Part shown: one piece after another, positions 7,434-45,370 of the stretch
Numbering within the stretch: the first letter of the stretch is position 1
Layout: each line of letters starts with the position of its first letter
Origin: Acidobacteriaceae bacterium
GTDB taxonomy: Bacteria > Acidobacteriota > Terriglobia > Terriglobales > Acidobacteriaceae
Length of the DNA stretch: 64,000 nucleotides
Assembly: GCA_021323655.1 (NCBI GenBank)
Contig: JAJPKO010000027.1
Coordinates: 62,001-126,000 of the forward strand
Reading direction: 5' to 3'
The notes under the pieces: model-generated
The model's input: the letters and a program-made list of their open reading frames with translations, nothing else
Told to the model about the DNA's origin: nothing
Database searches by the model: none
Made by a program: the position numbers and the translations under genes

Positions 7434-7475
7434 CGGGCGCCCCAGGTTCACGAAGCTGACCTGGGCCCATCCCCG
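7434..7475. repeat. Inverted repeat, locus 1 (CCCAGGT stem)
   Basis: GGGCGCCCCAGGTTCACG is followed by CTGACCTGGGCCCATCC, giving a seven-base-pair stem (CCCAGGT/ACCTGGG) with an 11-base loop. The arms resemble the longer inverted repeat at 44994-45076 (GGCGCTCCAGGTTCGCG and CTGGAGCGCCCATTC), and both end in CCCATYC. No T-run follows, so it is not an obvious terminator for the glycosyltransferase gene that ends at 7376. Confidence 0.6.
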
Positions 7476-7567
7476 TCCGCTCCCCCTGTGGAAAATTCTT
7501 GTCAAGCCCTCTTCCCCGAAACTTTCCAGTTAACCCGCACAAAATAAATAAGTTATTTACAACCACG

Positions 7568-7605
7568 CATGGCCGGTAATTTCCACCCAATTTGTTATCC
7601 TGAAA
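7568..7605 (+). repeat. Conserved intergenic block, locus 1 (ends TTTGTTATCCTGAAA)
   Basis: The block starts CATGGCCGGTAAT and ends TTTGTTATCCTGAAA (7591-7605). The corresponding block at 45219-45259 starts CATGTGCCGTAA and ends with the identical 15-mer, so the similarity runs over about 38-41 bases with small gaps. TATCCT (7596-7601) could act as a -10 element, but no clear -35 hexamer stands at the right distance. Confidence 0.7.
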
Positions 7606-7628
7606 ATAAGAACCAAAGTTCCAACCAG

Positions 7629-7655
7629 CGCCCGCGCTTGCGGGCGTTTTCTTTT
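7629..7655 (+). terminator. Intrinsic terminator inside repeat locus 1
   Basis: CGCCCGC (7629-7635) pairs with GCGGGCG (7640-7646) around GCTT, followed by TTTTCTTTT. It lies 250 bases downstream of the glycosyltransferase stop and only 25 bases after the conserved block, so it would either end readthrough from upstream or terminate a very short transcript begun at the block. Confidence 0.75.
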
Positions 7656-7680
7656 ACAGCTCACGAGGCCAACCCCCTCG

Positions 7681-7768
7681 TAAGTTGTTGAAAACACTAG
7701 TTAGGCATTAACTCCAGCAGAATCAATAGGATAGCGGGGGATGATCCCCCGCTAAGTCATTGAAAACA
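7681..7768 (+). repeat. Paired TAAG..TGAAAACA motif, locus 1
   Basis: TAAGTTGTTGAAAACA at 7681-7696 and TAAGTCATTGAAAACA at 7753-7768 are direct repeats 72 bases apart that differ at two positions. Between them lies an inverted repeat, GCGGGG/CCCCGC (GCGGGGGATGATCCCCCGC, about 7734-7752), directly abutting the second motif. Comparable pairs occur at 45312/45355 and, diverged, at 53317/53359. Confidence 0.8.
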
Positions 7769-7810
7769 AATAAAACTGCTCCCGATAAGGGAGGGGGAGG
7801 GGTACTCACC

Positions 7811-8239
7811 ATGTCCGCCATTCAGCCATATGTCTACACCGAATGCCAGCATGTCCGTCCGAACGGAGCCAAGTGCCGGGCCATCGCCATTCGTGGACAT
7901 CGCCTTTGTTACTTCCACCTTCATGTCCGCCGGCAAATGGCGAGCATCGTACCCGCAGCAGCTGTTGACAATGAATCCATGGCCCCCGCACAGGAAGCAG
8001 CCACTCTTGCGCTTCCTGTCCTCGAAGATCGCAGCGCTGTTCAGATCGGTCTCTCTCAGGTATTGCGAGCCCTGGCCGCCAACCAGATAGACACAAAACG
8101 CGCCAGCCTTCTCATCTACGGCTTCCAGATAGCATCAAAAAATTGCACTGAAGAATCAATCGTCGCCCCCCACCCCGTTCACGAGCTGACTCTGACTCCG
8201 GAAGGAGAAGAACTCGGCCCTGAAATCGAATTCGAATAG
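7811..8239 (+). CDS. Small CCCH zinc-motif protein, function unknown
   Basis: This 142-residue protein has an N-terminal putative zinc-binding module: C12, C22, C33 and H36 in the pattern C-x9-C-x10-C-x2-H, with the text ECQHVRPNGAKC then RGHRLCYFH. The remaining 100 residues are an Ala/Glu-rich linker and one amphipathic helix region (VQIGLSQVLRALAANQI) ending in an acidic tail. I place the start at the ATG at 7811, just after an AGGGAGGGGGAGGGG tract; a TTG at 7760 would extend it but lies inside the TAAG repeat. Small proteins with this cysteine layout are, to my recollection, common in Acidobacteria and unassigned. Nucleic-acid binding is a guess. The upstream repeats are the notable context. 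Confidence 0.75.
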   Translation: MSAIQPYVYTECQHVRPNGAKCRAIAIRGHRLCYFHLHVRRQMASIVPAAAVDNESMAPAQEAATLALPVLEDRSAVQIGLSQVLRALAANQIDTKRASLLIYGFQIASKNCTEESIVAPHPVHELTLTPEGEELGPEIEFE

Positions 8240-45218: not shown

Positions 45219-45259
45219 CATGTGCCGTAAAAACCCATACCTCATTTGTTATCCTGAAA
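45219..45259 (+). repeat. Conserved intergenic block, locus 2
   Basis: CATGTGCCGTAA at the start and TTTGTTATCCTGAAA (45245-45259) at the end match 7568-7605 in order, with three bases of length difference. Unlike locus 1, no intrinsic terminator follows. Confidence 0.7.
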
Positions 45260-45311
45260 CTAGAAGAAGAAGATCAGATCACATTTACTAATCCGTCAAC
45301 TCCATGCAACA

Positions 45312-45370
45312 TAAGTGATTGAAAATAAATGATATCTGTGCAGGCATCCGCCCGTAAGCCACTGAAAATA
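45312..45370 (+). repeat. Paired TAAG..TGAAAATA motif, locus 2
   Basis: TAAGTGATTGAAAATA (45312-45327) and TAAGCCACTGAAAATA (45355-45370) are direct repeats 43 bases apart. They match the pair at 7681 and 7753 (consensus TAAGYNRYTGAAAAYA with slight variation). This copy is followed by purD, not by a CCCH gene. Confidence 0.8.

Follow-up and report, generated by a model that had tools for sequence, protein, structure and literature searches.

The noncoding block in the 7.4-8.2 kb region of the window (the whole stretch of 64,000 nucleotides of Acidobacteriaceae DNA that was analysed) stands directly before a small gene for a protein with a CCCH zinc motif. In the reading that we tentatively favour, and to which we give slightly less than an even chance, it is a member of a dispersed element family that is tied to this gene and forms a population of the REPIN-RAYT kind. 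In each genome a single element, or in some cases a pair, serves as leader of a CCCH gene, and roughly 5-40 further copies are gene-less and end just before the position where the CCCH gene would start. This hints at a partnership of gene and repeat population that is so far undescribed; no description of element or gene was found in the full-text literature, from which most subscription journals were outside reach. The reading is favoured by the copy numbers, the leader linkage, the co-occurrence in the same 4 of 150 genomes, the concerted change of the copies, a duplication in Acidobacterium sp. S8 and compensatory changes, and it is weakened by the lack of an enzyme domain and of a target-site duplication, by a residual signal of site ancestry and by the few copies in two relatives (G077 and G093).

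Anatomy of the element and its copies in the window genome

The genome of the window comprises 4.59 Mb in 65 contigs. The element starts near 7487 (TGTGGAAAATTCTTGTCAAGCCC) and finishes with the G-tract at 7789-7802 (noncoding block about 7487-7805), and the ATG of the CCCH gene lies eight bases past the end of the G-tract. From left to right its parts are the 5' end, an A/T-rich block, a promoter-like box that includes an extended -10, a hairpin and its T-run, a C-tract, unit 1, unit 2 (with the motif inverted), a palindrome, unit 3 and the G-tract:

7487..7509, + strand: 5' end of the element, TGTGGAAAATTC and TTGTCAAGCCC; similarity among copies starts here
7531..7559, + strand: A/T-rich block TTAACCCGCACAAAATAAATAAGTTATTTA, conserved in alignment A2 (23 copies)
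7570..7606, + strand: promoter-like box TGGCCGG-ATTT..TTTGnTATCCTGAA, with the extended -10 TG-n-TATCCT at 7593-7601
7629..7655, + strand: hairpin CGCCCGC-GCTT-GCGGGCG with T-run, intrinsic-terminator-like, then TTTTCTTTT; read directly
7673..7700, + strand: C-tract CCCCCTC and unit 1, GTAAGTTGTTGAAAACACTAG (alignment A1, 26 copies)
7708..7734, + strand: unit 2, TTAACTCCAGCAGAATCAATAGGATAG, motif in inverted orientation (alignments A1 and A5)
7732..7754, + strand: palindrome TAGCGGGGG-ATGAT-CCCCCGCTA, pairing over 71 copies from 4 genomes
7752..7771, + strand: unit 3, CTAAGTCATTGAAAACAAAT, 72 nt after unit 1
7789..7802, + strand: G-tract GGGAGGGGGAGGGG, right end of gene-less copies
7811..8239, + strand: CCCH gene, 142 aa, with C-x9-C-x10-C-x2-H and a predicted-helical LEDRSAVQ...SLLIYGFQIASKN region

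Most of the parts named in the first-pass annotation were found in place. The block for which it gave a characteristic ending is promoter-like and ends TTTGTTATCCTGAAA at 7591-7605, the intrinsic terminator corresponds to the hairpin and T-run at 7629-7655, and the two motifs said to be 72 bases apart are TAAGTTGTTGAAAACA at 7681 and TAAGTCATTGAAAACA at 7753, exactly 72, with GCGGGGGATGATCCCCCGC preceding the second. The G-tract was read at 7789-7802, and the 142-residue protein is the open reading frame from the ATG at 7811 to the stop at 8239 (C12-x9-C22-x10-C33-x2-H36). The inverted repeat reported at 7434 exists as a palindrome, CCCAGGT..ACCTGGG at 7441-7465, but lies outside the element, the shared part of which starts near 7487. 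This palindrome is a separate dispersed repeat adjoining the element, with look-alikes at four other places in the genome (C59, C40 and two in C27) and similar words in the related genome G031.

The left end, (C/T)TGTCAAGCC, is also that of most copies read in two genomes of another genus, G031 and G124, in which the remaining sequence differs. The A/T-rich block may be an UP element or a fourth, diverged unit. The promoter-like box (TTTGATATCCTGAA with at most 3 mismatches) is found in 23 of the 26 copies in the window genome, and a like-placed TTGGCA..TAnnnT box is present in leaders from other genera. A G+C-rich hairpin occupies the position of 7629-7655 in 13 of these 23 copies (in 6 of the 13, four or more of the 7 bases that follow are T), so that the intrinsic-terminator-like hairpin is not universal. 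A CRISPR-like reading of the hairpin and ATTGAAAAC was dropped, the 'spacer' being conserved among copies.

When 451 bp of the window were searched as DNA against their own genome, 45 places matched, and the best of these apart from the locus itself had E = 6.8e-46. The 146-nt core was also made into a model, which yielded 30 matches: 26 are strong (E <= 6.1e-25), one is at 4e-10, and the remaining three are weak, reverse-strand matches to the palindrome. With 45 matching places and 26 strong core matches the element is real far beyond chance, and the noncoding block is supported as a dispersed unit. By eye the copies have no clear strand bias along the chromosome. The CCCH gene is single-copy in this genome, which rules it out as a component of every element copy. 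The same ordered noncoding parts had also been reported before purD; in that form this was not borne out, and the core model had no match at 45 kb. The stretch at 45239-45370 does hold a promoter-box match (88% over 24 nt). Its TAAG..TGAAAA motifs, two in number, are diverged, are separated by only 43 nt and lack the GCGGGG hairpin between them; the purD block is a decayed, partial relative of the element.

No Rfam match at gathering score was obtained in the window, nor any above gathering over the element in 11 loci, and a known RNA family was ruled out on this basis. A phage or plasmid origin was likewise rejected, since a 276-bp BLAST query had no match in phages and plasmids and tblastn found no CCCH relative among 197 pattern matches in viral contigs. 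The two-motif pattern itself occurs in 36 stretches of viral contigs.

The element and the CCCH gene in related genomes

It had been suggested that block and CCCH gene be counted together in related genomes, and this count speaks for the link: in 150 genomes of the family the strong core matches and the close CCCH gene fall in the same four. The CCCH protein has a match at E <= 1e-4 in 68 of the 150; a close CCCH gene (E < 1e-50) was found in four (G000, G100, G148 and G171), the next best match being at 1.8e-22. Core-model matches occur in five genomes, strong in these four and weak only in the fifth (G125, best E 4e-6), and G001, the only further genome from the genus of the window, lacks both a close CCCH gene and a core match. 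Agreement by chance would have a probability of about 5e-8 if the four genomes were independent, which they are not, as three belong to one genus. Two draws of 150 genomes were assumed to be identical (their names agree wherever listed in both), and G100 and G171 were taken as S8 and JAATFH again. An earlier set of 60 relatives had no core match besides the window genome. When 199 genomes drawn from the phylum were searched with a CCCH profile, 15 matched, and every one of these belongs to the family of the window.

A search of a genome collection for two motifs separated by 45-70 bases retrieved 26 stretches. Eleven are clear homologs with an exact 86-base span, from Acidobacterium sp. S8 and the metagenome-assembled genomes (MAGs) JAATFH bin_2 and JABDHA BWOrgControl_MAG3. 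One (L091, a Terriglobales MAG) is a different array, also directly before a CCCH gene; the other 14 were taken as unrelated, many being tandem duplications or tRNA-side sequences. With the core model S8 had 36 matches, of which 29 are strong; JABDHA had 13, JAATFH had 6, and three further genomes from the pattern list had none. Full-length CCCH relatives (tblastn, 63-64% identity) adjoin two copies in S8 and a single copy each in JABDHA and JAATFH; apart from one broken gene in JABDHA, the remaining copies in these genomes are without a CCCH gene. From the palindrome anchor to the ATG the distance is 75-76 in five intact cases including the window (in L147 the first ATG matched, at 70, is an earlier one, and 76 is the distance to the in-register start). 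In JABDHA another copy (L138) stands before a CCCH gene that is broken, with ATC for ATG and an internal stop. The two units of leader and gene in S8 are identical at 709 of 792 aligned positions (90%) from the upstream palindrome to the stop codon of the gene; leader and gene were duplicated together in this genome, since the units are alike up to the stop codon and their surroundings differ.

Two other arrangements were seen among the pattern stretches and related loci. In Alphaproteobacteria a TAAGTnnTTGAAAA motif stands beside tRNA-like genes (L094, L095); motifs of this sort may be associated with integrase attachment sites. Other Acidobacteriaceae hold arrays of TAAGTGTTTGAAAACA-like units, partly at a spacing of about 40 bases (L087, L093 (MAG JOPF013), L081 (palsa_345) and L088 (JOPF174)), and no CCCH gene was detected next to these four loci when the retrieved stretches were searched for the motif.

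The 330 bases before 29 CCCH genes of other genomes have related layouts with different unit sequences. A G-tract lies upstream of 19 of the 29 genes as against 8 of 614 control windows from the same loci, and by eye several leaders (e.g., L184, L186, L191) have three units about 29 and 40-43 apart, compared with 28 and 44 in the window. Another leader type is that of the CCCH gene of G031, which is the sole match there at E <= 1e-4 and has a leader sequence unlike the window's; this leader matches 41 places in G031 and 42 in G124, the two being species of another genus than the window's. We read 36 loci in G031 and 40 in G124, one in each being the gene's own leader. Eight further genomes were searched by BLAST with a joined query of eight leaders. 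G032 had 24 matching places, at least 4 of them before CCCH genes. Places were few or doubtful in G179 (7), G007 (14), G172 (18), G012 (4), G094 (4), G093 (2) and G077 (1), many of the matches in these seven being short or of low complexity. With counts ranging from 24 to 1, leader amplification is frequent but not universal. G032 has several CCCH genes, the leader of one matching the 24 places, and gene and leader have multiplied together there.

These copies could also be non-autonomous miniature transposable elements that depend for their movement on the product of a gene at another place, such as a Y1 transposase of the IS200/RAYT-like kind, with the CCCH gene as a passenger behind one copy. 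Genes for Y1 transposases are present in all 8 genomes tested, and one lies within 1 kb of a gene-bearing element in S8 (L165), at its JABDHA counterpart (L138) and in G031 (L184/L290). Palindromes, sites at gene ends and partial copies would fit such an origin as well. No Y1 gene was found near the gene-bearing element in G000, G148 or G124, however, and of 200 loci scanned no more than 7 had a Y1 match, several of these being the same locus twice. A passenger gene also leaves unexplained why a close CCCH gene is present in every genome with strong copies and why the leader type tracks the CCCH type, and we regard this origin as distinctly unlikely. ERIC and Correia sequences are MITE-like dispersed elements that resemble the present one in being non-coding, intergenic and present in tens of copies; here, unlike in MITE-like elements, there are no terminal inverted repeats and no target-site duplication signal, and the leader of the element's own gene is itself a copy. 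In detail, the words shared by the two ends of a copy showed no excess, at 4.35 against 4.04 after shuffling (31 G124 copies) and 4.13 against 4.05 (24 G031 copies), and the element ends, TGTCAAG and the G-tract, are not inverted repeats of each other.

Concerted change, genomic sites and structure

In G031 and G124, one species pair outside the window's lineage, copies at fixed sites evolve in concert within each genome. Flank matching identified 26 shared sites, all in the same orientation and including the gene's own site, with a conserved downstream flank at 26 of 26 and a conserved upstream flank at 10. The median divergence of the downstream flank is 10.3%, and the mean divergence of the elements between site partners is 27.1%. 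At none of the 26 sites was the site partner nearer than any copy in either genome, and at 24 of them a G031 copy was nearer than the site partner; the partner ranked first among 40 at 2 of the 26, with a median rank of 12. Over all copies, the nearest one is in the same genome for 52 of 76. Among the G031 copies, 9 of 36 carry a swapped hairpin module, compared with 1 of 40 in G124. Random re-pairing gave a mean distance of 0.288, compared with 0.271 for orthologs (0 of 5000 as low), and a small signal of site ancestry therefore remains. Conversion-like copying explains the concerted pattern best; rapid parallel change together with a co-evolving protein is an alternative source that we do not favour over copying. 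It is conceivable, although on the unlikely side, that a small CCCH protein reads the units and in a gene-conversion-like manner keeps dozens of copies homogeneous, with lineage-specific unit sequences that co-evolve with it.

Eight G124 sites that lacked a partner were traced into G031, where all eight flanks were found. One of these G031 sites has an element at a contig end, one has the 3' tail only, three have another dispersed repeat, and the other three had no element in the stretch printed. The other repeat (GCACGGCTTCAGCCGTGCC .. CCGCGCGGCC .. CGCCGAAGGCGTCGAGAACGG) was seen at L330, L331, L333 and L327 of G031, where G124 has the element; at L327 only the 3' tail of the element is kept behind it.

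Of 147 copies, 96 have a downstream gene that converges on the G-tract, and for 61 of these 96 the distance between the end of the G-tract and the stop codon of that gene is 0-35 nt (G000 15/21, S8 14/20, G124 16/24, G031 15/21, JAATFH 1/4, JABDHA 0/6). A position between convergent genes on both sides is common in G000, with 16 of 26 copies, but not in the other genomes, with 12 of 40 in G124, 4 of 36 in G031 and 8 of 27 in S8. Gene calls around the copies came from our own codon-usage scorer trained on the window, which in the 147-copy count missed the CCCH gene and called an antisense frame there; the large outlying distances in this count are due to such calls.

Pairing within the element was followed across copies. 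In alignment A5, which spans 4 genomes and holds 71 of 75 copies (L067, L178, L179 and L150 being left out for a low profile score), the palindrome and its flanking motif halves have 80.3% of their cells paired. Eleven of the 18 pairs changed on both sides, in 47 cells where shuffling gave 34.4 (a count that high in 1 of 500 shuffles); the count of further pair types was 27 as against 24.9 (91 of 500). For the promoter-near hairpin of G031 and G124, 92.5% of cells are paired, a value of the chosen subset, since alignment A6 holds 46 of the 76 copies and mostly those with the G+C-rich hairpin; both-side changes were found in 12 cells as against 2.1 (0 of 500). RNAalifold run on the 26 window-genome copies alone found almost no covariation. 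Structure in the element is thus moderately supported; it could operate in RNA or else in DNA, either single-stranded or as a cruciform.

The sites and the pairing also bear on a regulatory RNA network, in which the gene-less copies would be small RNA genes that titrate the CCCH protein or act on converging mRNAs, in the manner of a CsrA/CsrB-like sponge with autoregulation at the leader of the CCCH gene itself. The promoter-like box in 23 of 26 window-genome copies, hairpins with compensatory changes, the 61 of 96 G-tracts close to a converging stop codon and the conservation of the downstream flank at 26 of 26 shared sites against 10 for the upstream flank are all in keeping with such a network. 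Against it, the neighbours are not shared across lineages (2 similar pairs among 139 downstream genes and 6 among 118 upstream genes), so that shared target genes were not found, downstream pairs being no more frequent than upstream ones; furthermore the 3' end of the core has no terminator and no Rfam family was matched. We consider this network unlikely. CsrA and the CsrB-type sponge RNAs are known for repeats within one RNA. The present element resembles them, under the working model set out below, in combining one small nucleic-acid-binding candidate with many repeated sites, and differs in that there is no homology and in that its sites are dispersed genes and not repeats in one RNA.

A working model and the CCCH protein

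RAYTs are described, in PMC8049555, as single-copy Y1-transposase genes next to a member of an element population. REPIN-RAYT systems are the one gene-linked element population available for comparison. The element family resembles them in having a single-copy gene by one member of the population, dozens of extragenic copies, persistence at stable sites, and palindromes. It differs in that the gene encodes a 142-aa CCCH zinc-motif protein instead of a Y1 tyrosine transposase, and in that the element is about 300 bp long with a promoter-like box, units and a G-tract, compared with a short REP or REP pair. Under the REPIN-RAYT-like reading that we favour, the CCCH protein would recognise the repeated units both in the leader of its gene and in the gene-less copies, in the form of DNA or of a structured single strand. 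Recognition would regulate the protein's own gene, and it would drive or guide a process in which one element is copied onto others and, on rare occasions, to new gene-end sites, the strand-cutting or recombination step being supplied by host or other enzymes. If this is true, populations of the REPIN-RAYT kind arose more than once, in this case on an unrelated small zinc protein. The concert of dispersed elements at fixed sites would mean either copying between non-allelic sites or strong co-evolving selection that imitates copying.

A small gene preceded by repeats, with a hairpin in its leader, also resembles type III toxin-antitoxin systems, in which case the repeated RNA units would be the antitoxin and the dispersed copies orphan antitoxins. 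In ToxIN the terminator lies between the repeats and the gene for the ToxN-like nuclease. Here, on the other hand, the hairpin precedes the units instead of separating repeats from gene, the protein has a zinc motif and is not a ToxN-type nuclease, and there was no PADLOC match, all of which makes a system of this type very improbable.

The CCCH family is common in one soil-bacterial family (the 68 of 150 genomes above) and has no functional name. Fourteen diverse members share C, H, G, C, C and H and the LED..Q..A..A..N region. No significant family was found in Pfam, NCBIfam, PHROGs or PADLOC, and no recognisable nuclease, transposase or recombinase part is present in the protein; the window protein had no Pfam match at E <= 10, and the family none to Y1_Tnp at E <= 1. 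Of the 14 members, 11 had a weak profile match to zf-primase (PF09329; best E 0.0019), 7 to DUF5763 and 3 to HGGxSTG. The CCCH zinc finger of Mcm10/primase (PF09329) is alike in having a spacing close to C-x9-C-x10-C-x2-H, and Mcm10 in the PDB gave E 0.38 to the CCCH protein; unlike the PF09329 proteins, the window protein has no significant match and no replication context was seen. The CCCH protein may bind nucleic acid and, as suggested in the first-pass annotation, the block or its transcript. An AlphaFold2 model built from two sequences, of low confidence (mean pLDDT 57.8), has a small zinc-knuckle-like part and helices at 34-53, 74-89 and 95-110.
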